In this document: positions 12,595-62,047 of the stretch, piece by piece
Layout of the letters: every line of letters begins with the position of its first letter
Numbering within the stretch: the stretch's first letter is position 1
Assembly: GCA_947172415.1 (NCBI GenBank)
Contig: OX359194.1
Span: forward strand, 5,022,001-5,086,000
DNA length: 64,000 nt
From: Chondrosia reniformis
Lineage: Eukaryota > Porifera > Demospongiae > Chondrillida > Chondrillidae
Reading direction: 5' to 3'
Program-made: the position numbers and the translations under genes
The notes under the pieces: generated by a model
Seen by the model: only the letters and a program-made list of their open reading frames with translations
Databases searched by the model: none
Told to the model about the DNA's origin: nothing

Positions 12595-12846
12595 CTATCT
12601 CACTGTCCGTTCCTACTGTTGAATACAGATTCCCATATCTTTATTACTGCAAAGGTGTGATTACTACGGATACTATAACACCAGGTACAAGTCACCAGCC
12701 CACGAAACGCGTAAGTGGGTCGTTCAACTTCAATTTGTAAAACTCAAAATGGAAGGCTAGAGTCTAGATTGAAATCGGAAACGTAATGCAAGGTAGGCGT
12801 GCCAACAAGTGCTCCGCCTCTATTTGTAGTCACGGGTTAGAGGAAG
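12595..12846. promoter_or_regulatory. Short divergent promoter region
   Basis: 252 bp between the SLC35E1-like start (minus) and the hydrolase-like start (plus). More GC and CpG than the surroundings (ACGAAACGCG, AATCGGAAACGTAATG). A shared bidirectional promoter is inferred from spacing. Confidence 0.5.
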
Positions 12847-16964: not shown

Positions 16965-19900
16965 TCAGCCAAAGCTCACTTCATATTTAATCTTTGTCAT
17001 GTGATCCAAGTCTAATCTTTCTTTGAACAATGAACTACAGGCAGAAGTACACAAAGACAATTCCTTAAACTATACTTAAGGATAATCAAGCTCTATACTA
17101 ACATGCTAAAAATGTATGCAAAAAGGTATAAATAAAGTGGTCCACTGGAAATTACAATTTGGGCATCATTTGATAGCATGTTTATATAGCTCTTGATAAT
17201 GTTGAAATATGAATTGTCATAACAGCTACTGCTTTGAAGTTACATCTGAACCTAACCTTCATCAAGTGCACAACTGAGAAATCAGGTATAATTGTTTTAT
17301 TTTCTGTCTATTTAAATATCTCTGTGTACCAATGATGTCATACACCATGTACATTAGAGACACGCATAGTAGTCAGTAAAACATGTTTAAATTGCCAAGA
17401 GATATACAATAGAAGCATTGACTCGCTTGTTGACAGGGGGAAGATGCAAAAATAGAGATAAGTGTTGTTGTTTATTATTTTATTATAAAAATAGTAAACA
17501 AACAAAAGTGTAACTTGGAATTGTAGTTTAAATTTGATAAAAATAGAAATCTTCCCTTAAAGGAGAAGAAAACTACAATGGTAACAGTCTATGTACCATT
17601 TCTCATGGATGGTCATGTTATATAATGTATACTTAGAACAAACAAATAACAGGACATCATCCCAACTTACCCAATAAATTTTATTTCTCCTTCTTGGCGA
17701 GCATTTCCAGTCCAAATAGCTAATTTTAATGCCTTTGCTCTCAATTGTACTACTGCTCCACAAATCTCCTCAGAGCAGTCACCAAATCCTTCACCTACTA
17801 ACAGCATTAGCTGTAACAAGACAAAGGATGGATCACAGATGAATAACCAAAACACCAGTTAAGATTAGATGTTATACAAAATTATGGCCAACATAATGCT
17901 GCGATGTTTCAGATTGAGTAGGTACGTAGGCTCATGATAAATTTGATGGGAGTTCATTGAAAGATGTACAAAATGGCAAGTCAATTAAGGCAGGTATCTC
18001 ACCTGTTTTACCATTAAAGTATGAGGCCATTATCAGAGATCATCACAACATCTCAGAGGGATACAGTCTACAGCTATACGGATACAGTGTACAGCTATAC
18101 GGATACAGTCTACAGCTATACGGATACAGTCTACAGCTATACGGATACAGTGTACAGCTATACGGATACAGTCTACAGCTATACGGATACAGTGTACAGC
18201 TATACGGACACAGTGTACAGCTATACGGATACATTCTAAAGACTTAGTCTATAGATCGCATCACACATTTCACTTACAGTTTCTTCCCAGTATCTATCTA
18301 ATGAGTCCTTCCTTTTCTTTTCCAAATTTAAAAGCCATCTACCTCCTTCCTTATTTCGCCTATCTTCCCACATAGGACGAATGCCCTCCTGTAAGAAAGA
18401 CAAATAAATGCAAAATCAAAATACACTCAATCCTCCCTTATTCGGGCACTTTGGGACTGGGCATTGTCTGTAACTCTGATATGCCCGGAACTCAGAAAAC
18501 TCGAAGATTAAAGCTGTTTTATTAAATTCTACATGCATCTACATGCATCTACATGTGTCTAACCCAAGCCCTAATAACCCTAACTCTAATTAGGGTTAGG
18601 GTTACAAGGGGTCCCCCAAAAGCTTTTTGGGTCAATATGGGTATCAGCAGATAGCCCTTGAAAAATGCTATTTGGAGAACCTAAGTTGCCTATGGCAACC
18701 CTAATTAATTTTCGAGTAAATTAAGAAAAACTAAAATCAATTAATCGATTCTTTTTCTAACTACATTAAAAACATTTTTGTATTATGAAGTTTTAATTTA
18801 AAATTTAATTATCTTTTTAATTATATAATTATAGTTAATTACCGATAACAGCCGTGACATCAAGTTCTTTTTAGGTCAATTTGGTATCATTGGATAGATC
18901 TTGAAAAACGGTCTTAGTAGAACCTATAGTAAGTTTGCGAATTAATTAAGAAAAACTCTTCCCATATTATATATAAACTATCAGATATATATAGTCATAA
19001 AATATATTACTAACGATTATCGAAAAATTACATGACGTGAGCTTCCTACACTGAGGTCCGATTTTTTGGCATCCGAAAACATAACTGACCTACACCAGGG
19101 TCCACCTATGACCTATATAAGTATTAGGACTTTTCAGTTTTCAGTTAACAGACAAAAACGATTGAAAAGAAAAGGATGTCCATTTTGATTCACTTTCACT
19201 TTTCATTTAAAAGTTGTAAACGTTTGAAAAGATATGGATCTAGATTTCGACTCAGCTTGCTTTCCATTGAGAACTACTGAAGTCTTACTGTGGTTCACTG
19301 GACTGACCATGGTGCACCTTATGAATACACCGCATATTGTTAAGGAACTGTTGCACCTAGGACTACAAGATACCAAAGGACCCCATAGCCCCTTGCCAGT
19401 GGGACATTGGTATATCTGCTAAAATAGAAGCTAACAAGATACCACTCTTTAGCCTTGCTGACAATGTTGAAGGTAAGGTGCATCCTATGCTGCTAAGTGA
19501 TTTAGGTTCTGTAGAGTTGAAGGTTCCAGAAGGATCTGTAATAGTCTATCAGCATCTGTTACATCAGCTGAAGGCAACTTCCAGTGTATAACCGCAGATG
19601 CCAATAACTCTGAAGGGACTAAGGAAAAAAGTGAATGCTTTGAAAAAGTTACTGAAGGACCTGATTGCCGCAGATTTATCAGAAATAAACCAGATTCGAA
19701 TGGAACTTAGAGTGAATGGCAACTTCACCTATGCACAGGCAATGAAAATATTCAAGAAGTGCATTGCCGCGGATCAGTTACCATCTTGAGTCATCTTGAA
19801 GCATGGGGTCAGGTTCAAGAAGTACCTGCAAAATATTTCCAAGAGGTTTGATGTTATTGAGGAGGGTGAGTTACGTATTCTGAGGAAGTAACGAAGACAA

Positions 19901-22900
19901 GATATCAGCCAACCAGAAGCATCACCTTGCTTGCCTGTTGAACAGCTTTGGGTACAGTTTTGGCCGCTGGATTCGACATTTGAAGAAGCCACAATTTTCA
20001 AACAGGTTGTCTGTTTCTGGAGATGTCCATTGCAGGATGCCAAACATTTCATAGCCAGAAAGTTTGCCAGCAAGTTTCAGAGCAATCCGCTATTACAACT
20101 TTCAAACCACACTGAGTGTAGCCTACTACGAGAACAACTCTCTTGTCATTAAAATTGCCAAAATAAAACCAACGACTACTTCGTCCAAGAGACAAACTAA
20201 AATGTCTTCATTGTTTTTCAAATATCCCCCTACGTGAGGCTACTATTGTGGATCAGCCAAAATGAAAGTGCCCTCAGTGGGACCGAGGTGCTTCAAACTA
20301 TACTACACACCCTATCCCTGAACCCCCTGGATTTTCCCAACATTGTCCCTCCCTGGCATGTCCAGATGGGCAGAAGAACATAATTCAATTAATTAATTCA
20401 ATACCATACATACAGCTTCCTTCCAAGATAGTGGAATGCTCTTGGCAAGTTTAGAGTCTAGGAGAGACAAAGACCCAAATACTAAGGAGCAGGAAGCCAA
20501 GCTTTGTGTCACCCGCAGCAAATGGAGTAAAATATTTCAGAATGAGTCTGTTGTGACACAGGAGAGGAATGAGGTAATATCAAGCCAAGCTTGCTTTAGA
20601 CACGGCAGAGCCCTGCCACAACGACTTGACAGATGCTATGTCTATATTACTACCATGCTTATACACTTCCATGAAAACAATGAGCCTCAGGATTTTGAAC
20701 CTGTGGCTAATTTGCTGGCTGGTTCCACCACTGAAGACAAGAACAAGAAAAGCCAAGCCACCAGCAGCAAGCCATCCACGTAAAATGTGGGTGTGGTGTT
20801 GAGCGGGGGTTTGCCAACCATCCCAGCAGACATCTTCACTAAGATAAAAATTAACCACTATGTGGAATTATCAGAACTCCTTCCTGAGAAAATTCAGGAC
20901 TCCATTCTCTACCCAGAAGGGAAAAAAGAAGGCCCCAGCAATTGAGAAATTTACTGACTGGATACAAGCATTTTGCACCTATAGTCAGGCCCTTCTCTCT
21001 GTCAACCCTCATCTTGGGGGAGACCTAGTTACCTTTGTCGGTACTGTGGCTCCGTTGGCACGGGACCATCCCAGCTTAGCTTGGGCTGCCTATGAGCGCT
21101 CTTTCAGAGCCAATGTTGTTGCTGACCCATCCCTCAAATGGGGCCGGCTAGATCAGGAGCCGTGGGCCCTCAGTTTAGTTAAAGCCACTACCACCATGTC
21201 TCACCCACCAGCTAATCACCCGCCTCAAAAGAGGAAGGCTCCTACTTGTGACAAGTGGAATGACGGCAACTATTGCCCCTTTAAAACATGGGCAACTATT
21301 GCCCCTTTAAAACATGCAGGCCGACCCATGTCTGCTCAGTCTGCCGTAGCCCACAGCATAGGGCTACTACTTGCCCTTCCGCAGCTGGCTCCAAAGCACA
21401 CTCAGGCAGCCAACAAAAGAAGGCTTAAAGCTTGATTATAGCCTCCAGCATATACAGGCCAACACTAATTCATCTCTGAGAACTGATATTGTATATTTAT
21501 TCATCTTATGGGGGTCCTCTATATATATATACCGTGTGTAATCCTTACAAGTTGCAAATGTTTATATACGTAGGCATGGCTATATAATGCTGGCATATCA
21601 CCATGCACTCAAATACATAACTAATATAAAATTAATGTATAATATATTCACTCCTATATACATGCAAACTATTGAAATTTAATTACTATATCCATGGGTT
21701 AGGCTTGCCTTGCTTGGAGACCCTTTCTTATCCTAAGAGCCTTAGTGTCAGTGATGGAATAAATCCTGCTGACACTAGTATGGCATATTCCTCTATTGAG
21801 GATGCAGTTCGCATCATCCTTTCTTTGGGAAGGTTAGCACTGTTGGCAAAAATTGACATATCTTCTGTCTTCAGGATCATTCCTGTTCATCCTTCAGATT
21901 GCCATCTTTTGAGTATGAAATGGAAAAATCAAGCATTCATAGATAATCAGCTACCATTCAGCCTGAAGTCAGCTCCCATGCTATTCAATGCCTATGCTGA
22001 TGCATTAGAGTGGATACTTCGTAAAGACGGTATCCCATCTCCTCCATTACTTGGATGATTTCCTAGTGGCCGGTCCCCAAGACTCCACAGATTATCAGCT
22101 TCACCTTGATAAAATGACATCTTCTAAGATTAACCCCTATCCCAGACTCCCTCTGGGCACTTCTAATCAGACTGGACCTCAAGCAGGTGGAGGATGCTTT
22201 TCTCCATTTTTATTCAGAAGGTCCAGCCTCCAACACCAAGAAATCTTACTCTTTATATCCCAACTTGGTACAGACGGTCTTGCCACCTCTACCATTAGGC
22301 TTTATTTATCAGCTATTCGTAATCTACTGATTAGTCTTATCCTCCCCTTAGTTAGCCAGCACCCTCCAAAGTTGAGTTAATTCTCAAAGGAATAAAAAGA
22401 GTACAAGCTTTCGGTGGCTCTAATCAAAAAGTTGCCTACCCATCATGCCTTCCATCCTACTGGCGCTCAAGCAAGTATGGTGCACGGACACCACCAGTCA
22501 AGATAATCACATGTTGTGGGCTGCTGCCTGCTTAGGTTGTTTGGCTTTCTTAGGTGTGCCGAGTTCACTGTCCCCTCAGACACCTCATATAATAGTTCAC
22601 AGCACCTATCTATAGCTGACATTTCGGCTAGCTCCACCGAAAGCATTCAATCTACTTCCAATGTCTCCATAATAGCTGTGAGGATAAAACAATCAAAAAC
22701 TGACCCCTTCAGGAAAGGGGTTACAGTTTACTTGCAAAAAACTTGAAAATCCTTGTGTCCAGTCACTGCCCTAATGAAATACCTGCAGTTTTGGGATCCT
22801 CAAAATGGTCCCCATTTTATTTCAGAATAAAAACCTTTGACCAGAATAAGCCTTGTCCTTAACTTGAGGAAGGCATTAAAAGCTACAGGTCTAGATGACA

Positions 22901-25422
22901 GCTTGTATGCTGGACATAGCTTCCCAATTGGTGCTGCCACCATGGCCCTCAAGGCTGGCATTTCAGACTCCAAAATAAAGATGCTGGGACGCTGGGAGAG
23001 CTCAGCCTACCAACTTTATATTGGTACACGGAGGGAAGAGCTCGCTACAGTCCCTTCAGTGCTGGCCACTTAACCCCACAGTTCCTAAACATTCTCCATT
23101 AATTACTTATATCCAGCCATCATTGACAATTATAATTACTCAACATACATACATGGTTACCTATATAATATAGACAGATGCACAAACGTTTTATCAACTT
23201 ATAATAATTGATCATGACAGTAATATATTACCATATAGTCAGCAATTGCAAATTTACAAATTCCTATACTTAGCAATTTTATATATAAGCTCGTTAGGAA
23301 AGCGCATGGGGCTTCCCCCCTCTTTTAGCTGTCACAAATGTATCATTCAGTTTAATTTCTTCATGCTTTGGGGGACCTCTCCCCTCTTCCATGCTTTTGG
23401 GGGCCTCTCCCCTCTTCCATGCTTTTGGGGGCCTCTCCCCTCTTCCATGCTTTTGGGGGCCTCTCCCCTCTTCCATGCTTTTGGGGGCCTCTCCCTCTTC
23501 CATGCCTTGGGGGCCTCTCCCTCTTCCATGCCTTGGGGGCCTCTCCCCTCTTCCATGCCTTGGGGGCCTCTCCCCTCTTCCATGCCTTGGGGGACCTCTC
23601 CCCTCTTCCATGCTTTTGGGGGCCTCTCCCCTCTTCCATGCCTTGGGGGCCTCTCCCCTCTTTGTTAGGGTCGTGCCTCTTGGCAGCATGCGGTGGTACC
23701 TCATCTTTCCAAAGCAACCATTTTATGTAATGTAGGTGCAGGCTGACTTATCATGTAGTCAAGCCCAGGTAATAGGTCATAACTGGCCTTAGGGTAATTC
23801 CAACCTATTAACTGACAGGTCTCCATGTCCTATTATTTGGTCATTCATAACTTCGTGGATAAACCATATGGAATCCAAAGGATTGTCTTAAGAAAGCTGG
23901 GCCTAAGTATTACAATTTCCCTAATGGCCCTGCCTGCACCTTAAAATCTATATCATATTGTGGGGGTTGCTAGGCAACTCTATACCCCTAAATTTAGTGT
24001 TACAAGCTTGCTGCTTACCCCAGCCTTCCGCCAGCTTATTGCATAATATGCACAGCTAAAGGTTAACCCCTGGCACTACTTGCATGGCTTGCCCCATCAT
24101 AAGGTGTGGCATGTACTATCACTAAGCATTGACGGAGCGTATGAACATTAACATCAGTTTAATTGTATACCAATAAAAAATGGCCGCTCTACATGGGTCT
24201 AAACCAAGGGTAGATCGAAATTTTCAGACAAGAACACAAGTGAAACAAACTTGTTCCAGCTGCAAACACCAGCAGCATTCATAGCAATTTTCACACTGGC
24301 AAGGACACAAGAAGTAGGCTTATTTCAAGGACTGACAAACAATTGATAATATAAACATAATAAAATGTGAATATTTACGACTTGATTGAGGCTGTCACTT
24401 TAAGCAATTGACTGTCCAAGTGAGGTGACTGTTCATACTGTGGTTCCACTGTATTTTTCATGCAAACACCTGAATGTTGTACGATCAAAGATGCATGCTA
24501 TGATTCTCAATTGTTCTATTTTGTGATCTATTAAACTTTCGCTTTATAAAATTAATAGAATTTAAAATTCCTGTCAGTATCTGAAGATAACTACACTCTC
24601 TATACATACAAGTATCCAAAGGCAGTGGACAAGCAGATGAAAATTCAACAGTATTGACCATTTAAATTTCAAACTACATGTGTGGAGAAACACGTATTGA
24701 TGGCTCAAATGGTCCACATCACAGAAAACTAATACAGTCCCTTGATGTTTCGCTACAACCACTTAATAGGACTACATTTTATCAGAGGTACACACTGACC
24801 TTAAAAAGCATGTAGTCTGATCCATTGTCTACTCTGCTTGGAGGATTTATATAATTTACTAGTCTACAAGTAAAGTAAGGTACGAACATGTACACACTCA
24901 TCAGATGTGGAAAGTGTATATAGCAGAGCCTGTGATATTTTGGACTACAAACCTGATTTATACTATCCTGGTTTCTAAGAAGCATGCATATAAGGCCAAT
25001 GGATATGATATACACCTACTGAGTATATACTTTTAAAAATCTTACAATTTTAAGTAAAAATCAGGATCGACATCATCAGTGTCTACTAGATAGATTCTCC
25101 AATTATGTACAATCTTTATTCAATCAACAGACTTACGCCCAAAAGTCTTCAACAGTATTGAAAGTTGCAACCTCTTTTAACCTCTTTTCCCAGTCAAGAT
25201 GTTTATATTTATCACCCATAAGATACCAAAGCGTCCAACTATTCTCCAAAGGATGTTTCTTCTCGCTAGCAGGTGTATCAACGGCAGCAGGCTGCTGAGA
25301 CGAGAAAGAATGAAGATATTTCAAATTTCACAAAGCATTAAATCAGTGTCACTCGGCGGAGCCACACAACGAATAAACCAACTCTACTCTGTATCTACAA
25401 TACGGCAAACACTTACGATCAT
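16965..25422 (-). CDS. EIF4E: Eukaryotic translation initiation factor 4E
   Basis: Exons in coding order: 25417-25422 (ATGATC), 25137-25294, 24800-24863, 18278-18388, 17671-17810, 16965-17034, giving 182 residues with all phases closing. It binds the m7G cap of mRNA and recruits eIF4G for translation. Family landmarks are KHPLENSWTLWY, the cap-binding tryptophans in HLDWEKRL and IRPMWED, the adjacent Glu of that motif, DFWALVNYI, NGSDYMLFKEGI, EEICGAVV..RAK and LAIWTG. Both cap-stacking positions are Trp, as in class I eIF4E. The C-terminus stops after KIKYEVSFG and lacks the Ser/Thr-Lys tail that carries the MNK site (Ser209) in human eIF4E. The 6.4-kb intron between exons 3 and 4 houses a retroelement remnant and a minisatellite. 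The tiny first exon is the least certain part. Confidence 0.9.
18058..18239. repeat. EIF4E: 21-bp tandem repeat in an eIF4E intron
   Basis: About 8.5 copies of a 21-bp unit reading GGATACAGTCTACAGCTATA plus C, alternating TC/TG variants. Because 21 is a multiple of 3, all frames stay open, which creates spurious repetitive open frames on both strands. It lies 39 bp upstream (plus sense) of the exon at 18278-18388. Confidence 0.95.
18540..18925. repeat. EIF4E: Telomere-like words and a duplicated 55-60 bp block
   Basis: CCCTAATAACCCTAACTC faces TTAGGGTTAGGGTTAC within 60 bp, an inverted pair of telomere-like hexamers. Two similar blocks follow (about 18627-18690 and 18868-18925: GGGTCAATxxGGTATCA, AGAxxxxCTTGAAAAA, AGAACCTA). 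Probably part of a decayed mobile element in the eIF4E intron. Confidence 0.5.
19234..20783 (+). other. Unassigned element-associated open frames in the eIF4E intron
   Basis: Several short plus-strand frames (19234-19422, 19598-19789, 19931-20152, 20436-20783) lie upstream of the retroelement domains. They include a lysine-rich coiled stretch (LRKKVNALKKLLKDL) and frames interrupted by stops and shifts. I do not recognise a domain. They may be the 5' part of the same retroelement or a separate decayed element. Confidence 0.35.
20860..21435 (+). pseudogene. Gag-like frame of a DIRS-like retroelement, decayed
   Basis: 191-residue frame with SLAWAAYERSFRANVVADPS and a Cys-rich end (CDKWNDGNYCPF), resembling the nucleocapsid-like ORF of tyrosine-recombinase retrotransposons. 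Upstream coding continues in another frame (NHYVELSELLPEK at about 20850-20900), so there is a frameshift near 20920. A 25-bp tandem duplication at about 21267-21316 disrupts the Cys motif. Not functional. Confidence 0.6.
21690..22130 (+). pseudogene. Reverse transcriptase fragment of a DIRS-like retroelement
   Basis: Residues matching reverse transcriptase blocks: LAKIDISSVFRIIPVHPSD, then FSLKSAPMLFNAYADALEWIL, then LDDFLVAGP, which is the catalytic YxDD region in the next frame (a frameshift sits near 22050). The RNase H and most of the thumb region are absent: about 70 bp later the sequence is already recombinase-like. This implies an internal deletion. Confidence 0.75.
22200..23073 (+). 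pseudogene. Tyrosine recombinase of a DIRS-like retroelement, decayed
   Basis: N-terminal SAM-like part (STIRLYLSAIRN, LKGIKRVQAF), then FGFLRCAEFT containing the first catalytic Arg, then YAGHSFPIGAAT and LGRWESSAYQLYI with the Tyr nucleophile region. The second catalytic Arg of the HxxR motif is replaced by Pro (HSFPIG). At least two frameshifts and an internal stop (22741-22746) separate the parts. RT plus tyrosine recombinase identifies the DIRS/Ngaro group rather than an LTR element. No split direct or inverted termini were identified. Confidence 0.78.
23366..23664. repeat. EIF4E: 27-29 bp minisatellite in the eIF4E intron
   Basis: About 10-11 copies of a G/C-rich unit (GGGGGCCTCTCCCCTCTTCC followed by ATGCTTTT or ATGCCTT). 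Strong purine/pyrimidine strand asymmetry. It gives open frames in several frames on both strands, none of which is a believable protein. Confidence 0.95.
23665..24799. other. Remainder of the eIF4E intron
   Basis: No exon or gene recognised. Contains GGTTGCTAGGCAACTC, a near-palindrome at about 23968, and scattered AT-rich sequence. Confidence 0.4.
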
Positions 25423-26999: not shown

Positions 27000-39035
<12,036 letters not shown>

Positions 39036-43500: not shown

Positions 43501-46404
43501 AATTAAGAGCAGAAAAATTTAGAATCAGTTTTTGATTTACAGTTAATGCCTTTTATCCAAGAGACCTGAAAAAGCAGATTAATATTCAAAGTGATAGTAA
43601 TCTACCCACAAATATTTAGAAAAATTACATACGTACGTATGTATAGTATATTTTGACCTTTTATTGTATATAGCTTCCTATCTCAATCAATATAGTGATG
43701 TGAATTCACAATTGTACTGTATAATAGCTTTCATTTTACTATTTTCTTGCATTTAGCTTTTAGTCGTGTCTCAGAGAACCACTAAGAGTGTTCTAAGAAA
43801 TCCTCATGCCTACATCATGCAGGTACTCTATACATCCATACAGTACACACATATGTGCCTATATGTAGTACATGTCTGCCTTACATTTCACAGGATCAAA
43901 TTACAGGTTTCATATGGTGTGAAATCTATTTGAAACTTCTTGAACAGCCAGGTTTCAAAGGGTGCTCAAGAATGTGCTAACAGATTAATTTCACGGGTTT
44001 CAAGTTTTAACAGCCCCCTTTCCGAGTTTTATACATACTTTCATATACCTTTTGAAACCTGGCAGTTCAAAAGAGTTTCAAATAGGTTTCATGCCTTCTG
44101 AAACCTGATATTTGATCATGTGTTTCTTTAATAATGGACAGTTCATAATTATGTGTATTTACATATATACTGTATAAAGCCATCAGTTTAGATAGAGACT
44201 TCATAACTATATATATTCTGTCCTTTCCAATTATTATGACCTACGTAGTGTAAATAAATATTAATAACTATTTTCTTTTATCTTTTATGTAGATAATTAC
44301 TATGATATTCCTTGCTTTGGTGGTAGGAGTAATATACTTTCAAATCGATGATAATGTCAGTCAGTATGGGCTTAATAACAGGTACACATACAGTGTATAT
44401 GCCTTTCATTCATACAGAAATCCTGATTCATGTGCTTGTATTTATTAATCGAGTCTGAATGTATTTAATTTATATCTTCTTATTCTTTAAATATATGTAT
44501 GTGGTACATGTTATGATAGTATGTATGCAAAGCGCAAAGTGATCAATATTACAATTATTATCACTATATATTGTTGCTATATACGTATATATTAGTATAA
44601 GAGCTTTGGACACCTTGTCCCTAATGGAAAATTTGAGGAGCTTCCGTTTTGTTTATTTTCATATGTTACTGTTACTCCTTGCAGACTTGGAGTGTTTTTC
44701 TTTATCATAATGAACATGGTCTTCACAAACCTCTCAGCAGTGGATCTTTTCATAAGACAGAAACCTCTTTTCATGTAAGCTAATGTACTCTTCGTTGTAA
44801 TACAAATGCATATAATAACTCTCCTTCTAAATCTATGTATATAATCACATCTTATTTTTGTCAGTCCTCCCTTAATTCTGTATGTCATTATATCTAATTT
44901 TTGTAGCCATGAAAATGCTAGTGGTTATTACAGGGTGTCTGCCTTCTTTCTGGCCAAAACATTCCTTGATCTCCTTCCAGTTAGAATATTCCCAATTGTC
45001 ATCTTCTCGGGAATAACTTATGCCATGATAGGTACGTATGTACGTATTTATTTAAATACGTACTGTATGTACATGTTGAGTATTTATTTATTAATGCACT
45101 GTACATACGTATGTACATATTTACAATTTCACTTACTACGTACGTATATACGTACCTCCAGCCTTTTATTATCTGTGTATTGTACGTATGCATATACATA
45201 TGTATGCACATGCATTTGAAGAGTTATCATATATAACTTTCTACTTGCTTTTCCTTTACAGGTTTTAGACCAGATTTCGGCTCTTTTATTATCTACATGT
45301 TAACATTGATGTTGACAGCGACTGTTTCCTGTTCGCTAGCCTTTGCTATTAGCGCTGTTGTGAGGTTGACAGCTATTGGTAACCTTCTAGTGGCTCTTAC
45401 CTTTGTGTTTGCAATGGTACGTGCTAAAAGTTGAATCATTTACACCTTCAGTAATTTTGAAATATGAAATATGAAAACCTTCAGTAATTTTGAAATATGA
45501 GTTTGATTTGGTACCTTACAAATACTAGCACATGTATATACACGTACGTACTATTTTTAAAATAAAGAATACTTACATTTATATAAATGTATATTTACGT
45601 ATATATCCATTAGCATTGATTATTTGGACAAACTGCTTTGATTTTGCAGGTGTTCGGTGGATTTTTAATCAGTTTGGAGAGTATAGCCCCATGGTTGTCA
45701 TGGCTGCAGTATCTCAGTACCTTTCGCTATTCCATGGCAGTAAGTAGAATTCTAGCTCAATTTAGGGAATATAACTGACATGTTTCTTACTGTATATATA
45801 AAGTAAAATCCACCAAATGCCATAAATTCAAGCAATCCTCCATATATTCTTCCTGTCAAAATTTCCAGATACAGTATATGGCATTTGGTTTATTTGGCTG
45901 TGATGTCCTTGGAAATTGTACATTAGTGCATTGCTGTATCATGTGATTGTAGGCACTGTCTATAAATGAACTGAAAGACCAATACTTTTGTCAAGTGAAC
46001 TCCACATTGCTTGAATTTCTTTCCACTGTAATGAATGGAACACAGTGGTGAGTGTACTGTGTACGTATTAGCATCATATTGAAATTATATATTGTGTACC
46101 ATTAACATGTCAATTTAACTGGTACCTACGTATATATAACTGTCTAGGCATTTTCACTGTGGAACATAATATATACTGTAACTAATTCAAATTTGTAGAT
46201 GTAGTAGTCTGAGTTATTATTATGTATGCTTTACTTCTCTATACTGCTAGTCAAGGGGAGCTAATTTCAGGGAATCAATTCCTCACTGGATTGGGATATT
46301 ATAACATTGATTTGTGGTACAACGAACTTGCCTTGTTTCTAATGGCAACTCTACTCTTGTTGCTAGCCTATGTCAACCTGAGACTCATCAATAAGCAACG
46401 GTGA
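40537..46404 (+). CDS. ABCG2: ABCG-family half-transporter, ABCG2-like
   Basis: 16 exons: 40537-40760, 40865-40924, 41400-41514, 41633-41785, 41965-42122, 42516-42667, 42978-43124, 43298-43479, 43757-43822, 44293-44381, 44685-44774, 44907-45031, 45262-45416, 45650-45739, 45953-46047, 46251-46404; 684 residues, phases close. Order is nucleotide-binding domain then membrane domain, the reverse of ABCD and typical of ABCG. Motifs: [17 protein letters not shown] (Walker A), [44 protein letters not shown] (signature), [11 protein letters not shown] (Walker B), [22 protein letters not shown], then six membrane helices including [17 protein letters not shown] and [14 protein letters not shown]. Similarity is strongest to ABCG2 (BCRP), a plasma-membrane exporter of xenobiotics, porphyrins and sterol conjugates. 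Substrate here is inferred only. MITE copies lie in introns 5 and 9. Confidence 0.94.
42156..42335. mobile_element. Diverged copy of the CACAGGATC foldback MITE
   Basis: CACAGAGGACCAAATCTTAG, then GGTTTCATAAGGCATGAAACC, with inverted GGTTTCATGCTACTGAAAC at the other end. More degraded than the copies at 5841 and 43889. ABCG2-like intron 5. Confidence 0.5.
43889..44122. mobile_element. Foldback MITE with CACAGGATC ends, copy B
   Basis: Begins CACAGGATCAAATTACAGGT and ends AAACCTGATATTTGATCATG plus TG, with about 60-nt inverted ends. Flanked by TTT on both sides, like copy A at 5841-6043. 234 bp, non-coding, in ABCG2-like intron 9. Confidence 0.75.
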
Positions 46405-50400: not shown

Positions 50401-53400
50401 ACTATGTACACTACTTACTTGCTGTAAGTGAAGGAACAGACACACTATTACTGTGTTCTGACTCTCCAGCCTCATTTGTAACTGATATTGTGATGATTAA
50501 CTCTGTTAAATAAGTGTACTCCAAGTCTATCATTTGGGAGACAATGTTCGAATGAACTTCTAGTGAGAAATTGGAAACTCTTGTTTTGTTTATGTATACA
50601 ACAAAGCTTTTCAGTTGCCCGCATGAACTTTCTGAAACCTACAAATAAATCAACAAAGATTAAATTGATGAAGCTTAATGACATTATGATGAATTTTAAT
50701 CCATTGATAAGATAATACATACGTATGTACGTATGAACTGTATATGTATGTATATTATAGTTCGCTAACATTCATCACAACTTGAAAATATCTTCCAGAG
50801 CATTTCAGTGTGTCATTTCTTGTGAAATGTATTACATTTGGAGGATACTCTGGAGCTACAGAGGAACGTTAAACACTGTAGAATTTCATTATTCACTCTA
50901 TTATTACTATTATCTAATATTATCACTATTCACTAATTTTTCTATAATACCTACATATGCATTCTGTATTTCACTTCGAATTCTGTGTATGTTTTTCTAA
51001 ATATTCCACACACTCCCTATTTAGATAAACCACATATATTTATATATGCTGAAAGAGTTACCTTTCTTTCCTGTAGAAAATAAAAGTGTACTATTGGAAA
51101 ACAACAAGGGGTCGTCCATTTCTCCTAGGCCTGTTGCTATCAATGACATTTTGCACATAGTGTTACATGGAAGCCCCCCCACTGGTAATGAATATGGTTT
51201 GTTAAGCAATGCTGGAAAAAACTACAGAATATATACATACAAATATACCTATTTTAAAAGTAATCAAAGTCCTTAAATTAAATTAAACGGTTTACTATAG
51301 GAATAAAAATTCATCACATCAGAAAAGTCACTGGTAATAAAAACTGCTGGTTTCATTTCCAATGATCTTTCATTGATTTACATATATACATATAAGCTTA
51401 ATTGTCTGGTAATGTAATGTTTTCATTTGAACTGTCCCTTATAGATTATATATACGTACTAGTAACTATTATTCACTGCTATTGGGTGATTCAATAAACC
51501 AATGCAAGTAAGCTGACTATCAGTGCAACCTGCACATGTATATATACATACATTTACATGTGCTGTAAATATTACATATGGTCAGAGACTAATTGGTTAA
51601 GCTGGCCCCTCCCACTGAAAGAATATGGGAAAGGTGTCTCTGATCATCAGGTTGTTTTAATGAATGAAATCAACACTAATTAGTGTGATTATCATATAAT
51701 ATATAAAAGGGAAACATGAATTAATGAAGCAATTGTGGCAGAGCACTGGTGGTCATAACCAGCTGTCCTGGGTTTGGTTCCCAGAAATTGCTTCTTTCAT
51801 GCTTTCTCTCTTGAGAGAGAATGATTACTTGTGGTTTGATTATCACTTTTTGATTATTCATATACGTATATACTCACTGATTTAGTTATCTGAGTGTTTC
51901 CACAAGCAACAAATACATCAATATTTTTCAGTAAAACCCTTCCAACCCAGGAACTAGGTTTATTCCAATAAAATGTACATTGGAAATCTCCATTCACATC
52001 CAAACTGCATGTGGCATTCCTACTGGATTCAACCAAATCTGCAAAGGAAGAAAGGTAAGGTACAATGTAACAAACATGGAATAGATCAATTTCCTCTAGA
52101 CTATTACCCTATATATATCCTGTAGGGCAACCTTGTAGGGCTCGGATAAGGATGTACATACATATGTCTACATTTTTATACCATTTGTCTTCCACCATTG
52201 GGCCAACAACCAATTGCAAGTACACTTAATGATTTGTTGCTAGTATGTACATACGTATATACTTATGTCAGGAATCAATCTGCTATATTTCCAGTTATAC
52301 AGTTAGCACAAGTTAGCAGTATATGCACATACATATGTAAATGTACTAACATTTTGAAGCTATCTCACCTTTTTGACAATTACATATGCTGTTTGAATAA
52401 TTCCCGCTAGAGCTGAAGTATTCTACAGCACTCTCTGATACTATATCTTGATCATAGAATGCATAAACCTGCCATATTAATCTTCCACTACATTGCAGTT
52501 CTTCGGTGGTGTAATTAATTAGAGGTCCAAGGTCTGTATAATTACACGAAACTGGATCATTATCATTGCACCAACTAATCCTCTGAAAGCTCTTCCACAA
52601 GTATGGGTAGAAATCTGACAGCTGCCAGCTCAAAGAGATACCAGAAGTATTGTCAACTTCTTTACATGTCACTACACCGGGTGGATTGGGTTTATCTAAG
52701 AGAAATCATACGTACATTTATATGTATGGAAATATATATAAATGTACATTTTTAATATTAAATAGGACATATACGTACATAACAAAGCTTACAACTAGAC
52801 ATGCTTATATAGGTATTTAGTGTAGCCTCATTTCTCCAATGATTTGCAAAACACTTACATTTCAGAAGGACTCTGATAGTAAAGGAGTCATTAGAATGAA
52901 CATTGTTTGCAAACACTTGGTACATGCCCACAAACTGCTTAGCTGTGAGACCACTTGGGAACAGAAGGGAGTTTGAAGGAACAATGTATGGCTTTCCATT
53001 ATGAAGCCATGCTACATTAGGTGGTGGCCCTCCAGAAATATTAAAAGGAACTTCAGTTGTATTGCTAAGTTTTCCTTCCAAATCATATTCAAGATCAATG
53101 TCCAAGTGATGATCATCTGTTATACATAATACAGTACGTATATCAGTATAATGTCATTTCACAATTATCAATATTACTTATATATAATTAAATGTTGACT
53201 GAGTGAGGAGAAAAGATAACATATAAATAATAAAATATGGAAACCATGTATGCAAACTTATATACACAATAGGTCTTCCATGCAAGACTTTGGTCCCATA
53301 ACCCCATATAAATGCTAACATAATTAATATATGTACATACATATGTAGCTTACTTATTTCATATTCATTTCCATACATGGCTCTAGTCCATCTTGATATT

Positions 53401-55014
53401 AAAACTGAAGCTATGAATGTGATACAAAATTGCATCATCAAACTTGAATAGTGTGTATATACAATGCTATATAGCTAATTAAACTGTACATTTGCTGTAC
53501 TTTCAGCTCTATTGACAATTAACAATATACATACGTTATATATGTGTGTACATTGACTGGTATATAAACAACAATGATAACTTACCTTTAGGGTGCAACA
53601 AAGCAATACTTTCATTCCTGCTAAATCCATTCTGAGCAATACACTTGTAAACTCCATAGGCCTTTGCATCCTTTACTTTTACTTGAAGAACACTACCTTC
53701 GGCCATGATGGTGTAGGGTATTCCAGATTCATTTACTGGTGCCCCATCCTTTAGCCACACATAGGTGATGTTACTCCCTCTGGCAATACATGTGAAAAAG
53801 GCAACTTCATTCAGGTATACATACTGGTCCACTGGTCTAGTTCTCCACTCCACTCCTTTAACTGGATCTAAAATCGGATACATATGTTGTATTTAACACT
53901 AACGTACATGTATAATATGAGTGAATCCAGTAAAACTTATACAGGCAACAGATATAACCAACTTACAAGTTTCATTTCTTACAGTAACATGAAAAGTTAC
54001 TGTCTTTTTGTTGTCAAAATAAAAACTGTTGTGATCAGTACACACATATACCCTACTGTTCTTCAAATTTGCTTTTGAAATTATTATTTCTGAGCCGTTA
54101 TTTATTAGTAGATCATTATTTGGGGTCCAGCTCCATCCAGGAAGAAATTGTATAGGTACGTCAGTCTCACAAGTCAGGTTTGCAGTTTCTCCCAAATATA
54201 ATTCCACAGATGTGTAAACATTGTTTTTAAAAAGACCTGCAAAATAAAATATAAAATTGCAGAGAGAAAAGAATATATAAGGATTTCTTCTAACTGCACC
54301 GAAGTTATCTTTTGAAAGGATCTAAAGACGCTCTAAAAGTCGAAAGATGATCCTTTCAAAAGAACTAATTACTAAAGAATTATGAACTGGTACTGCTCAG
54401 CTGTTTTCTTGTATAGCAATACATACATAAGTAGATATACGATAGTGGGTATATGCAGTGCCATCAGTACCCACCTCCTACAGTAACATGTACCACTGGT
54501 GACACAGAGATAAAGGATCCATCATCTACCACACACTGATAACTCCCAGGGTACGTCACCAACACTTCTGTCATATTCCAAAAGTTGCTCCAACTCTCAT
54601 TCCACTTTGTGTCATTGTGTAACCAGTAGAGGCTGGGGTACCAACCACTGACAATACTTTCAATAGAGACTTCACAAGTTAGCAGATGATTCTCAAAATT
54701 AAGAAATTCTAAAGTTGGGATGTAAAGCAAAGAAGGTAGAGTTGTAAACACAACTGGTTTACTGCGTCTGTAATAAGGGTTTGAGCCTTCATGTGTCCAA
54801 ACTGTTTCGTATATCGTCAACAGGACTAATACCTGACAACCAAAATAGCAACTAATCCTACACAGAATAAGAAACAGACATTAAATTCAAAACAATTGTA
54901 GTTGCTAGATATGGATTCAAATATTACTACAAGTATAATGATGAACCTAATTATATCATACGTATCTAGCTAGGCCTCAGTAGGTATATACTCTTACCTG
55001 GATGCTGTTTGCAT
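47452..55014 (-). CDS. Ig/FN3 transmembrane receptor, copy 2, complete
   Basis: 17 exons in coding order: 54998-55014, 54475-54857, 53967-54236, 53586-53867, 53354-53404, 52859-53116, 52369-52695, 51878-52038, 51062-51221, 50779-50855, 50419-50638, 49828-50190, 49714-49740, 49314-49367, 49151-49223, 49007-49061, 47452-48396; 1,240 residues. Signal peptide (CQVLVLLTIYE), four Ig-like domains (to about 420), FN3-like domains starting KPNPPG (421), DLVESS (530) and APEYPP (637), a Cys-rich segment (736-856), short stalk, one membrane helix (ITSALFLSAVLGVILSII, about 885-907), a basic juxtamembrane stretch with paired prolines (KKKIKNLYKSRPPGLL) and a tail of about 315 residues with several tyrosines (EEYSQE, EVYHQP, LEYVTS, SYDETL). 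Type I surface receptor. The layout recalls gp130/cytokine-type or adhesion receptors; no WSxWS motif was seen. The donor at 50779 may shift by 3 nt. Confidence 0.85.
48668..48770. mobile_element. Near-perfect foldback element
   Basis: Left arm TTATACCACACTCACTCAAG... and right arm ...CTTGAGTGTGGTATAA pair over about 42 bp with one 4-nt and one 1-nt difference. The loop is about 18 nt. It lies in the last intron of receptor copy 2. Likely a palindromic MITE. Related words recur at 48850-48900. Confidence 0.75.
51724..51794 (+). repeat. tRNA-like sequence, probable tRNA-derived SINE head or pseudo-tRNA
   Basis: GAAGCAATT at the 5' end pairs perfectly with AATTGCTTC at the 3' end. Inside are an A-box-like TGGCAGAGCACTGG, an arm CTGGT/ACCAG with a 7-nt loop, and a T-arm-like CTGGG, TTTGGTT, CCCAG, whose loop differs from the usual TTCRANT. 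The loop base before the would-be anticodon is not T, so a working tRNA is unlikely. It lies in an intron of receptor copy 2. Confidence 0.45.
54306..54366. repeat. Intronic inverted repeat, second copy
   Basis: Same 14-nt-arm hairpin as 4912-4972, in the matching intron of receptor copy 2. Loop differs at one base (GACGCTC against GACGTTC). Confidence 0.7.
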
Positions 55015-55467: not shown

Positions 55468-58400
55468 ATGAAGGGAAAATACTTGTAGGTTTACATCAGC
55501 TTAGTTAAGATTCTTTTCAATTCCTTTTCTCCTCGTTCCCCCCGCTGCACTGTACCCTCTTTCATGCATTAATCTCTAGCATATTTTTAGTTAAAGCGAT
55601 TTATATGTGTATACAATACGTACTGATTCCTATACCTTGTCTATTTCATGCATAATGCATGTATGTCTCTCTAATATTTGCAGTGTACACATTGGACAAC
55701 CAAACATTGGGGAGATACTATTCCTAGTACCTATTAGTCCCCAAGAGCTCTGCCAGCTGCCTTATATGGAGTTTCAGTTCACATATTCTGAAATTACAGT
55801 TGAGTCAGAAGCCTTAAATGGACCTTCTTTAGTGGTGGTGGCAAATTCAAAGTTGGTTACACTGCAATCCAACTTGTTAGGAGTTCAACTGAAACCAATT
55901 TGGAGAAATGCTACTCACAATTTATTCTATGTCCCCCATTTTTCCAAATACCGAATCATGTCTTCAGACGAGGACAGTGAGGATGAATTTGAAGATTGCT
56001 CTACTGCAAGGGATTTGTCAGTGAACCAAAGGAGAATGTATGACATACACAGGTCTTCTTCAAGTGCCCTTAATGTCCCACTGTGTATCTACCTAAGTGG
56101 AGATGTTGAGATGACTGCCGTCGCCTCTGCTGTTAGATTTCTGCTCCAAAAGTATCCCATATTGCGATCTACATACATACCACAAGATGGTTCTGTAGTG
56201 GAGGTAGTGAGGCCATTTGAGTCTATGGAGAATATCATTGACTGTCAGGATGTTTCTCATTCGAGCCCCAGGGAAAAGGTCATGCAGTTACTTTCACTAG
56301 TTAACACAGCCTCTTCGTGCATTTTCTCTTTAGATAGATCAGTTTTCTTAGCCTCTGTACTCAAAGTGCAAGAAGGCAAGTTGCTTGTTCTGCTTCTGTT
56401 TCATCACATATGTATCGATGGAATGTCTATTAGAACACTCTTGAGGGAGTTCCAGAAGTGGCTAATGTCTACTAGCAATACAGACTTGCCTGGCTGCCTA
56501 GTCAATTTACCTATGAGGCCAAACTGTGAAAGAATTGATGATACATGTGTTAATGATAAATGGCAAAAGGTTATGGAAGACATAACCCTATCAGCATCTT
56601 TTCCGTTACTTGGAAGTGATTGTACTCCTTCCAATAAAACTGCCGGGTATGTTCATCTTAAAATGGGCAATACGGACTTTCACTCCATGTTGTGCACTTT
56701 ACAGAAGCAACTTCAAGTTCCAATGTTAGTTATGTTAGGTGCTGCTTATGGTATTGCTCTGTGTGCTACATTACAGTCTAAAGAGGTAGTAATTGGTTGT
56801 GTAGTTGTTAATCGTGTCGGTGCTAATCAGCATGATGATGTTGGTTTTTATGCCAATACCCTACCCATTTGTGTTCAGTTGAAAAATGGAGATACCTTCC
56901 TAGATATACTAAAGCGAGTTTATCATAATATTCAACTGATACATGATCAAAGCAATGTCTTACTTCCCAAGCTACTAGCTTCAATGAAGTCTTCCCATAG
57001 AGAATATTCAAATGGGTCACTCAACTTCATAATGGTTCAGCAAGACATGATGGCTGGCATTCCAAACATTACTTTGGACAAGGGGGACCAACTTGTGTGG
57101 ATGCAGGAAACTGCTCAGGCACAGGTGCAACTGAGTCTGGAGATTCTCCCTCACACAAGAGGTTACACCTGTAGGTGGCAGTATCAGAAATGTAGGCTCA
57201 CAGCAGAGCTTGTGACTTTCATTCATCACACTATGCTCAGTGTAGTTACCGCAGCTTTCTCAGATGTTTCATTCTGTGTCAATAAGCTTATTGGATGCTA
57301 CCGTAAACAAGCAAACAAGGCTCAAATGGAGGAAAGTATTGTGCAATTGGTGTCCTCTGGCCATACTGCCATGAAAAGGAGGAGAGTATTTAAATTGCTT
57401 TTATCAAAAAATATTTCGTCATTTATTTTAAACACCTCATCAGTGTTAGGTATTAAGGTGGTAGCTTTGTTGGCAATGGCTATGCATGTGTTTCTCTTTA
57501 GGCATTCTGGTGATCTAAGCATGTTTGTGTCCTTCTTGCAACGTGTAAATGGCTCAGCCTTGACAACCTCTGTTAGGGTAAATGTTACTGAAACGTCAAC
57601 ATTTAAGGAAATAGCTACCTTGTATGATTCCAAATTCAAAGAAAGTGCTGCATTTTACATGCCCTTGAATCATTCCTGCGAAGATGGTGACACTTTAATG
57701 TTCCATTGGGAAGGTACATTTGACCTTCCTTCGGAGGCTACATCTGGTATTCTTCTTGGGGTCAGTCCAAAACAGTTCTTATGGATGGGCAATTCCAGTG
57801 ATACACTCAAAATTGACCATCAGTTGCATTCCTTATATCTTATCCTAATACACTCAATATCAAACTTATCAATCTCCCTGTATTCCAATCCTCTGCTGCC
57901 AAATGTAGAGGAGCACTTTCTAACAGTTGAGGTCAATAATACTGCTCAGAGTTTTGATGAGCTTGAAACAATTATGGATATCGTTGAAGCCTCTTGCATT
58001 AGTTTTCCCATGCATATAGCCTTTGTAGAAGGTAGTAGGCTTACAACATATGTAGAATTATGGAATCTAGTGAAGGACGCAGCCTGTGTTCTTACATCAT
58101 ATGGCGCTAAAAGCAATGAGCCTGTTGCTCTTTTAATGAGTCGCTCCACAGAGCTGTTTGTATACATGCTGGCTATCCTATTCATTGGTGCCTACTATGT
58201 TCCCATAGCTACACAATCCCCAGCTAACCATATCATAGGTATATGCAGCAAAGCTGCAGTGAAAGTGGTTGTTACAGAAACAGCTCATATGGGTCTCTTA
58301 CAACTGTACAATGGTAGAATTGTCTTTATAGATACCCTTTATCCTTCAGCTCTTGATTCTCAAAGAGTGAAGCCCGACCCCCAATCCCTGGCCTATGTAA

Positions 58401-61400
58401 TATACACTTCTGGTACCAGTGGTGCTCCAAAGGGAGTGTGTGTGACTCACAGGAATCTGAGAAGTCTAATGGTAACTGCTACAACCCTGTTTAAAAAGGA
58501 ACAGCTACAGTTTACCAGGCTTGCTATCAATGTCTCTTTTGATCCTCATACAATGGAGCTCTATCCTACTTTACTAGTAGGAGGCTGCTGTCTTTTGGTG
58601 GAAGATTTGACATGTCCTCATCCGTCAGCAACATATCTCAGTTCCACCCCATCAGCTCTCAGTATATGTCCGCCTACCAGTCATATCCAGCTAGTGGTCA
58701 CTGGAGGGGAAAGTTTGAGCCCCAGAAATTTTAATTGTATTTCTCATGTACCTAATATCATCAATGCCTATGGTCCTTCAGAGTGCACAGTGATGGCGAC
58801 TGGTAATTCCTCAATAGATACAGAAAATGTGTCCAACATTGGAAGTCCAGTTGCAAACACGCAAGTGTTTGTTTTGGACGAAAACAAACAGGTACATGAC
58901 GTACATGAATATACTTAAGATAGATTCATTTATGATTGTGTATTATAATCACTGTATTTCCTTGCATATAAATAATTTTACAATATTACAAATATTTCCT
59001 ATAGATCTGTCCATTTGGTGCTAAAGGGATCCTACATATAGCTGGCCATGGAGTGACAAAGGGTTATCTCAATGATCAGTCAAGAACAGACCAGAATTTT
59101 GTGGAAAATACTTTCGGAGATGGTCAACTATATTATACAGGTAATTTGTATATACATATGTACTCAGCAATATACGTATGTTTCGTACATTAGTCAACCA
59201 TCAATACATGTTACTATTATATTACATGCACATATATAATTTTAAATTTTAGGAGACATAGTTAGTATGAGAATGGATGGTACATTGGATTACTGTGGAC
59301 GCAAAGATAACCAAGTGAAGATTCGTGGTATGAGGCTAGAATTGTCTGCAGTAGTAGAAGGCCTTTTAATGTGTACTGGTGTTGAGCAAGCAACTGTGGT
59401 TACCCTAAAAGATGAGCTTGACAATCTGCAACTAATTGGTTATGTCTCCCCTAATATAGACCCAACAGGAGATATACTTAAGGAACTAAAGCTCAATCTA
59501 CCACCTCATATGATACCTTCAAAAGTGATTGCTTTAGACAGTTTTCCTCTAACCAAAGAGGGAAAGATAGATCAGCGTAATTTACCCAAGCCTAAATGGG
59601 AAAGTGAAGCTTTTTCAAGTCCTGAAAGTGACAGCCCTCAGGGAAAGATAAGAAAGCAGCTAAAGAATACATTTGCATCTGTTCTCAAGGTACGTAGAGT
59701 GTCTAGGGGTGATGATTTCTACTCGTTGGGTGGACATTCAATCCTCGCTGCTCAACTTGCAAATATGGTCTCTGAGCAGTTTGATACTGTCATAAAACCT
59801 TCAGATATTTCAAATTATCCATCTCCAGCTGAACTAGCCTCAAAAATAAGTCCATATATACCATCAGTGAGACGTGGATCATGCATATCAGCATCTCTTG
59901 ACACTGCTAATCTTTTGACGGCTGAGTGCTCTCTGCGACCACTGTCTCAACGTCAATGGATGTGCTATATGCTACACAGATTAGACTATCCAGTTGCTTC
60001 CTTTACCACAACTATGCAGATATCTCTTTTTGCTGGTAATGTTAGCTGTCTAGCAATTCTGAGAGCTGCTAACAAAGCTCTTTATGAATTAGGCCTAAGG
60101 CAAGCATTTCTTTTCGAAAGGGAAGACTTTCCAGTAATTATTTGTAGTGATGATAAATATTGTGGGCCAACTGATGTAAGTGCACTACATCTTCATGCCC
60201 TCTCTGTTCATGACCTGGGTGAGTCTAAAAAGTTGGAGTTAAAGCTACATAGAATGTTGTTTGATACTTATGATAGGAAATATCTGAAAGAATTTATAGA
60301 TTTGCTTCTACTGAATGTGGATACTGATAAAGGTAGAGAAATTGACAATGAAGGAGAGCTTTTGTCTACTCTATCATCCTGTGTACTAGAGGACCCAAAG
60401 AGGAAGCCACTGTACTTTCCTTCTCAAGAGAGTTGGTCAATAAGCCTGAAAAGTGCAACTTTTGGAACAACACAAAGGGCTTGGGAAGCAGTCTTTGGTA
60501 TTCTCTTGCACATATTCATTGAAATAAGAGAGACTTCTAGGGATACATCAGGACTTGGTCATGTTCATTTATTAGATACAACCAAAACAATTCATAGAGA
60601 GGGGTTCTCAGAAGTGTTCCAAGAGAGGACCATTCTAAGCCCTAGAACTCTTTTAGGAGGAGCATCAATACATTCTATAGCCACAGACCTGGAAGCTAAA
60701 CATTGCAGCTCTCCTGCTGGGGAAGTGTCTGCTATTGTGTATCCTATTCCGCCACTTTTAAAAGTTGGTAAATCTGGATTGGATGTTTTTGTTGAGGTGC
60801 AAGAGCCATTATTTCTAGAATACCCTTTATCCCTTGGTATCCAAGTCTCTGAAGGTGGCACTGAGATTTCCTGTCACCTTACCTGCCAAAATATGAGCAA
60901 AATATTTTCTTCCACAGCAATCAAAGATTTCCTTACTCAGTCCATTCATGTAATGAATACAGAAAAAAATGTTGTAATTGATACCATCAAGAAAATAGCT
61001 CAGACTACTCTGCAGGACTCAGCCAGTGATCCATTGCCAGCAGGTGTTAACACTGTAGCTGATATTGTAGGCATGTCAAATTTTAAGATGGAGACCCTTT
61101 TGCCTAATATTTCAGACTTAAAGTTCAACCAAAGAATACAGTTGATTACCACAGAAGAATATGCTAATGGCAAACTGATTCAAAGTTTCCTGGAAAGTAC
61201 AGTAGGAGTTCATATTCCTATGAAAACCCTTCTCCTTTCTCCTAGTTGGCAACAAATTGAAGCATCATTGGCCTGTCTGTACAACTACAAACACCTTATC
61301 TCTGATGAGTCAGAGATACTGCTTCTTAATGATGGAAAAATGAAAGAGATATTTTGTTTTCCAGACCTAAGGGGCTCCTCTGAATGTTATAGAAGAATGG

Positions 61401-62047
61401 CCTCAAAGATTAACAATCGAATGATTGGATTACAGCTGAATGCAGAAACTTTAAGTACTTGCAATTCCATTGAATCTGTTGCCTCTTCGCTTGTAAGCCA
61501 ATTGAGCTCCTTTCACACATCTGGTTCCTACCAGTTGCTGGGTTATTCATTTGGTGCAGTGCTTGCCTTTGAAGCTGCACGGTTACTTTTGAGTCAGGGT
61601 AGAAGTGTTTCTCTGATACTCATAGATGGAAGCCCATGCCTTGCTACCTACCTACGGAAAGACTGGCAACATTTTAAATGGACAGAAGATTCCGCTCTGT
61701 TTGCCAATATTTTGTTTGCAAATCCAACCACACAAAGTCAGGTATCCATTGAATCTTTCGTGGAGGCCTTTCCATGGTTTCCTATGGATCAGGTGCAATT
61801 TGAAGACTTGCACAGAATGTTATCAAAATCAATCTTATTGTTAAGGGACTATAAAGTGTCACATGTCAAGAAACTGAGATGCAAACTGATCAGAGTACCA
61901 CAACACAGGGTGTTCCAAAGCTATGATTATGATCTGGAAGCTGTTTGTGATTTAGATGTACAAGTTATTCATGGAGCCGATCACTACAGCATTTTGAAAT
62001 GTAAGACAGGCCAAATTGCTTCTATTTTAAATGTATTCTTTCAATAA
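55468..62047 (+). CDS. Nonribosomal-peptide-synthetase-like protein (C-A-T-TE)
   Basis: Exons 55468-55484 (5' edge of exon 55413), 55684-58891, 59005-59140, 59253-62047; 2,051 residues, phases close. The start is the ATG that splices in frame into the long exon. Domains: acidic linker (SSDEDSEDEFED); condensation domain about 115-545 with LSVNQRRMYD, catalytic HHICIDG (246-252) and GFYANTLPI (393); a half-condensation-like stretch about 560-755; adenylation domain about 760-1232 with YTSGTSGAPKG (913), FDPHTMEL (Asp959), NAYGPSE, YCGRKDNQVKIRG and the A10 lysine (GKID, Lys1225); carrier protein with LGGHS (Ser1283); a decayed condensation-like domain (LHRMLFDTYD near 1453); a carrier-like helix bundle without Ser; thioesterase with GYSFG (Ser1886), LIDG and HGADH (His2031). 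It would load one amino acid, condense and release it. The product is unknown. The carrier needs a phosphopantetheinyl transferase. Confidence 0.92.

Follow-up and report, generated by a model that had tools for sequence, protein, structure and literature searches.

A putative animal-encoded NRPS-like enzyme ending in a thioesterase in the sponge Chondrosia reniformis

Sponges yield a wealth of peptide-like natural products, most of which are attributed to their symbionts, and few peptides of the NRPS kind are known to be made by animals. An intact gene in the host would permit a direct test of the animal's own production of sponge peptides. Does the genome of Chondrosia reniformis carry such a gene, how much of it may still work, and where could it have come from? 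We analysed a stretch of 64,000 nucleotides (hereafter the window). Our preferred reading, to which we give a probability of about one half, is that the window holds the gene of a nuclear animal NRPS-like enzyme in which a single module still works, probably the remnant of a two-module line. Its order would be N-terminus, C1, an intervening stretch, A, T1, C2*, T2* and TE (C, condensation domain; A, adenylation domain; T, carrier; TE, thioesterase; the asterisk marks probable decay).

Gene structure and genomic setting

The NRPS-like gene lies on the + strand. In a splice model derived from the sequence, four exons joined at GT-AG sites give 2,051 codons without a stop:

55468..55484, + strand: exon 1, the first coding exon (17 bases), with an ATG as candidate start codon and a GT donor, in frame with exon 2
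55684..58891, + strand: exon 2, an open frame with a TTTGCAG acceptor and a GT donor; N-terminus, C1, the stretch from C1 to A and most of the A domain
59005..59140, + strand: exon 3 (136 bases), with the A6 motif and most of A7; the A profile is continuous across the junction with exon 2
59253..62047, + strand: exon 4, with A8 to A10, T1, the probable decayed C2*, the probable decayed T2*, the TE and the stop codon
62046..62051, + strand: possible polyadenylation signal AATAAA overlapping the stop codon; a second AATAAA is at 62235

The two long frames (1,107 and 933 codons from stop to stop) are the longest of the 64-kb window; at the local base composition, the chance of 1,070 and 931 stop-free codons is about 10^-30 and 10^-26. 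A profile of bacterial A domains, made from at most 60 seed sequences, spans the junction at intron 2 unbroken (236 bits, residues 774-1113), and splicing out intron 3 restores the YYTGD motif. The GC content of the three introns is 36, 23 and 24%. In the coding sequence, GC3 amounts to 0.35, against 0.26-0.41 in six other frames picked from the window. Residues 1-97 lie outside all Pfam matches (up to E = 10), and only the reading frame supports them and the 17-base first coding exon; Met98 (window position 55958) is an alternative candidate start. Exon model, length and motifs all agree with the initial annotation, which had described a single 2,051-residue frame built from spliced exons. 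All these codons are open, including those of the decayed parts, which argues against a pseudogene. The same annotation had singled out two large exons amid genes with short ones. This contrast in size is real, but it is not unique to the synthetase: a frame of 523 codons occurs at 12841-14409 (+ strand, GC of 43%), with no match in Pfam (E up to 0.01) or in the PDB (E up to 0.001).

We scanned ten frames of the window with Pfam and obtained matches in five. Above the cut-off were one immunoglobulin I-set exon and two triose-phosphate-transporter exons; below it were one ABC-2 membrane exon and one reverse transcriptase piece. The style of the exons and the kinds of genes present are consistent with an animal. 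Bacterial contamination was rejected because introns and animal-type exons (the immunoglobulin exon and both transporter exons) share the window. What we see in the sequence supports an intron-bearing nuclear animal NRPS-like gene placed among animal-type genes.

The immunoglobulin-domain gene is present in two copies on the - strand (3176-5385 and 52853-54782), around 49 kb apart and with two aligned stretches that are 93 and 99% identical; the copy at 52853-54782 is immediately upstream of the synthetase, and the other is at the opposite end of the window. A 29-base tandem repeat makes up about 26 copies at 34542-35291, and further tandem arrays occupy 9140-9374, 18059-18238, 23358-23662 and 30040-30356. 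The reverse transcriptase match (RVT_1, 1e-4, below the cut-off; 21636-22055, + strand) is perhaps a retroelement remnant. The ABC-2 match (8.9e-5, below the cut-off; 44845-45213, + strand) may come from an ABC transporter gene located some 10 kb upstream of the synthetase, and nothing in the window indicates that the two form a functional gene cluster.

Active domains and silent stretches

The predicted protein can be divided as follows:

55982..57271, + strand: condensation domain C1 (residues 106-535; PF00668, 2e-35, above the cut-off)
57284..57961, + strand: unassigned stretch between C1 and A (residues 540-765), whose length and position would be compatible with a second C-domain lobe
57986..59611, + strand: adenylation domain (residues 774-1240) with two introns inside (PF00501, 6e-48; PF13193, AMP-binding_C, 5.2e-6)
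59636..59848, + strand: carrier T1 (residues 1249-1319; PF00550, 1.5e-13; 64.2 bits against the T profile)
59867..61126, + strand: probable decayed condensation domain C2* (residues 1326-1745), of C-domain size and directly after T1
61049..61285, + strand: probable decayed carrier T2* (residues 1720-1798), without the phosphopantetheine serine
61304..62044, + strand: thioesterase (PF00975, 6e-21), with the triad Ser1886, Asp1912 and His2031 present

The sequence has the features by which an NRPS is recognised, i.e. an A domain with motifs A3, A5, A7, A8 and A10, a carrier with its serine and a C domain with HHxxxDG. A3 (YTSGTSGAPKG), A5 (NAYGPSE), A7 (YYTGD), A8 and the lysine of A10 (Lys1225) are intact, as is the HHICIDG of C1 (56402-56422, residues 246-252), and T1 has its phosphopantetheine serine, Ser1283, in LGGHS. 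The integrity of the C, A, carrier and TE motifs noted initially is thus confirmed, all domains being above the Pfam cut-offs with their catalytic residues in place. The pocket of the A domain reads D P M S V G A V M, plus K. Since Asp959 and Lys1225 are in place, the substrate would be an alpha-amino acid, which the A domain would activate and load onto T1. The domain is short near the substrate pocket, with gaps of 10 and 6 residues relative to the bacterial profile, and owing to these gaps it might be altered or inactive.

We compared C1 with classes of C-like domains that were set by their context. It scored best with C domains that follow a carrier (139.2 bits, n = 147), with C-like domains lacking a following A barely below (138.9 bits, n = 46). 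Lower scores were obtained with N-terminal C domains (122.3 bits, n = 64), the mixed rest (105.7 bits, n = 20), C domains after an epimerase (91.8 bits, n = 25) and the epimerases themselves (52.7 bits, n = 31). Because no carrier lies upstream of C1, the acyl or aminoacyl donor that it would condense would have to come from another protein, in trans, or from a CoA ester.

The order of active domains is the C-A-T-TE initially annotated, but that layout is incomplete, as it leaves out residues 536-773 and 1320-1804. The first gap, of approximately 240 residues between C1 and A, has no Pfam domain. Residues 540-765 score 2.3 bits against the C profile, a value reached by 5 of 500 shuffles. Compared with the second lobe of C1, they do no better than shuffles (409/500 as high in local and 217/500 in global alignment), and 23/500 reach the score with whole C1 (local). 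We assign no domain to this stretch and do not call it a decayed C lobe, given that the pairwise tests were mostly negative though the profile gave 5/500.

The second gap separates T1 from the TE by about 485 residues. Hence, unlike in a plain C-A-T-TE termination module, the TE does not directly follow the active carrier. Here, residues 1326-1745 have HRMLFDT (60248-60268) where HHxxxDG is expected. The first lobe of C2* resembles that of C1 (z of 3.8; 1/500 shuffles as high in local and 2/500 in global alignment), and in this comparison HHICIDG aligns with HRMLFDT. The whole domains also resemble each other (2/500 global, 5/500 local), and the second lobes give no signal (311/500 and 399/500). 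These values belong to a set of 14 shuffle tests on lobes and domains. Residues 1326-1745 did not rise above shuffles with a first small C profile, and gave a weak score with a profile of 296 C-like domains from 86 bacterial loci (-0.9 bits, 21/500 as high). They are probably a C domain in which the catalytic histidine is no longer present, the likeness being carried by one lobe.

T2* is, after T1, the second-best place in the protein for a profile of 301 bacterial carriers, and it is in register (2.8 bits, 11/1000 shuffles as high). A structural model of T2*-TE, built with 22 bacterial T-TE rows, has three helices at T2* (pLDDT of about 67-77); they are no independent support because the alignment of the model itself contained carriers. 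A single-sequence model of C2*-T2* was uninformative (pLDDT of 33). We found no prokaryotic homologue of this middle region among plasmids (up to E = 10), and the PDB returned one unrelated row (E of 1.9). The reading of the T1-to-TE stretch as a decayed C followed by a decayed T is supported by these comparisons but not proven. In the mechanism that we infer, C2* and T2* would be unreactive and serve as a scaffold, and the TE would take the product, an N-acyl amino acid or short peptide, directly from T1 and release it by hydrolysis or ring closure.

The thioesterase and its likeness to FAS

With the TE alone as query, the best five rows in the PDB are FAS TE entries (5e-9 to 8e-9), followed by the fengycin synthetase TE (4e-7). 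With the whole of exon 4, the T-TE of EntF comes slightly ahead of FAS (1.3e-7 vs 2.1e-7) because this query also includes T1. The T2*-TE model was built on bacterial NRPS rows only; among the best 50 of 1,417 Foldseek matches, ranks 1-8 are human FAS TE (E of 6e-16 to 4.5e-14, 20-24% identity), and ranks 9-13 are four NRPS T-TE chains (15-17%) and the oocydin PKS TE (19%). The window TE and the FAS TE have in common DGSP and, before the catalytic histidine, DY[D/N]LxxVCD. A tryptophan precedes this histidine in 21 of 22 bacterial TEs, where the window protein reads DYDLEAVCD and FAS reads DYNLSQVCD.

A sister relationship with the FAS TE was not borne out by the TE tree (136 columns, 24 tips), in which the window TE is not beside FAS; in the underlying alignment, the motif common to both is shifted by two columns. 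In sequence identity, the window TE has 30.5, 29.0 and 27.7% with its best bacterial TEs and 27.2% with FAS, which is itself nearer to several bacterial TEs (36-38%). Animal type I FAS thus matches our gene in the top PDB entries, the first fold ranks and shared TE motifs, and differs from it in that Pfam detects neither KS, AT nor any further FAS domain in the two long exons. The question matters because sponges are reported without type I FAS: the available text of a survey that includes 896 sponge transcriptome assemblies attributes no type I FAS or PKS to them (PMC10764717). A FAS-like TE in such a phylum would bear on the source of the animal FAS TE. One may speculate, with little confidence, on an early animal lineage in which type I FAS was lost or never present and an NRPS bears the FAS-type TE instead. 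The two TEs would then descend from a common ancestor on NRPS-like assembly lines, and N-acyl amino acids or small peptides so far attributed to the animal's microbes would be its own products.

Known systems and the origin of the gene

EntF, SrfA-C and AB3403 are bacterial terminal modules of C-A-T-TE layout. Our gene has their order of active domains, and its T2*-TE model aligns with 3tej, 4zxh and 5ja1. It departs from them in the long segment between T1 and TE, its nuclear introns and a TE that is nearer to animal FAS TE in PDB searches. AASDH and Lys2 end in a reductase or a beta-propeller, for which the two long exons have no Pfam match up to E = 10. Ebony and the flatworm NRPS, which are beta-alanyl amine synthases with an amine-selecting domain behind T and no canonical C domain, are likewise animal NRPS-like enzymes. 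However, Ebony is described as using domains other than C (PMC10531068), whereas the window protein has a canonical C1 N-terminal to A, plus a TE. The planarian NRPS is described, in the text available, as similar to Ebony and to the schistosome enzyme (PMC11214079).

The initial annotation held that known animal NRPSs have other layouts, and this has to be revised. In Caenorhabditis elegans, PKS-1 and NRPS-1 make nemamide; according to the available text, PKS-1 has a C-terminal NRPS module (C, A, PCP) followed by a TE, and NRPS-1 also ends in a TE (PMC8363725). Being encoded by an animal and having an NRPS module with a terminal TE are traits shared with our gene, and in the nematode free-standing enzymes act in trans (PMC8363725). 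The nematode proteins are multimodular, and PKS-1 has polyketide modules, whereas our gene has one active module and a probable decayed C and T, and Pfam detects no PKS domain (KS included) in its two long exons. Animal NRPSs have been reported in several phyla, including rotifers, nematodes, springtails, molluscs, echinoderms and others, with regular C domains in Branchiostoma (PMC10531068). Reports also cover an NRPS of bacterial origin in a centipede ancestor (PMC9151784) and horizontally acquired clusters in bdelloid rotifers (PMC11258130).

For sponges, antiSMASH is reported to find 1-133 clusters in 13 genomes, with 1-2 in Amphimedon queenslandica; Geodia barretti has one NRPS and five NRPS-like clusters, and the authors left contamination versus transfer undecided (PMC10542158). 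The word "synthetase" is absent from the main text of a paper on Amphimedon genes of prokaryotic type (PMC4784904), and "NRPS" from that of a two-sponge hologenome study (PMC4772301). Among the titles and abstract openings that we searched, mostly of open-access papers, there was no description of a sponge-encoded NRPS protein; the Geodia barretti paper counts NRPS clusters. Animal NRPSs in several phyla, the PKS-1 module with its TE and the clusters counted in sponge genomes are thus already known. What is noteworthy here is the host, the silent domains and the TE.

The alternative that we take most seriously, while not favouring it, is that the gene belongs to an ancient animal NRPS family whose members in further phyla share its layout, in which case only the species would be new. 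Animal NRPS clades are reported to cross phyla, e.g. echinoderms with molluscs, but "sponge" and "Porifera" are absent from the main text of the same survey (PMC10531068). Long residence in animals would also suit the very long terminal branches of our gene relative to bacteria: 2.08 against a median of 0.58 for A (3.6 times) and 2.83 against 0.50 for C (5.6 times). The initial annotation had suggested separate trees of the C, A and TE domains. In these trees C and A choose different neighbours, and no donor emerges. A is placed beside L012, a Crocinitomix MAG (0.905), and C beside L017, a Pseudoalteromonas (0.891). We rejected both as donors, reading the placements as long-branch effects because of the branch lengths. 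The long branches and the discordant neighbours of A and C indicate that the gene is presumably old in its host or fast-evolving, and no donor can be named.

It is also conceivable, if rather unlikely, that the protein forms the final subunit of a longer assembly line in which C1 receives the chain made by another gene, as with PKS-1 and NRPS-1 of C. elegans. The available text describes the nematode genes as dispersed across the genome, with NRPS-1 receiving its chain from a free-standing loading enzyme (PMC8363725). The likeness of C1 to after-carrier C domains, when no carrier precedes it, would fit such a line. Against it, residues 1-97 match nothing in Pfam, and a tblastn search of the window with the whole protein found no second NRPS piece (the self-match and two chance rows with E of 7 and 9). 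We consider it improbable that the protein is decaying or non-enzymatic with activity kept only in part: two stretches resemble decayed domains and the A domain is shortened near the pocket, but the required residues of C1, A, T1 and TE are all kept.

A recent bacterial transfer with introns gained later is very hard to sustain, for the bacterial NRPS kind of the domains and the large exons are met by a GC3 within the range of the window, by C and A neighbours that differ and by distant bacterial matches. The best plasmid match of the A domain, in Leptolyngbya, has 34.6% identity over 98% of 300 aa, and all 1,171 plasmid records matched are below 60%. In bacterial and archaeal genome contigs, 80 loci kept of at least 581 confirmed (at least 593 candidates) are at 27-33% identity; exon 4 found none in these contigs, in a search that reaches close relatives only. 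A viral or phage origin was rejected, as scans of viral contigs with exons 2 and 4 (again close relatives only) returned nothing and the TE had no match in phages. Given the host-like GC3 and introns, the low bacterial identity and the lack of a donor, the recent acquisition from microbes proposed initially is not upheld. Such a transfer seems unlikely, and an ancient one is possible. The synthetase of the Crocinitomix MAG (L012:2138-12424) has three C, three A and three T matches, and a TE match below the cut-off.
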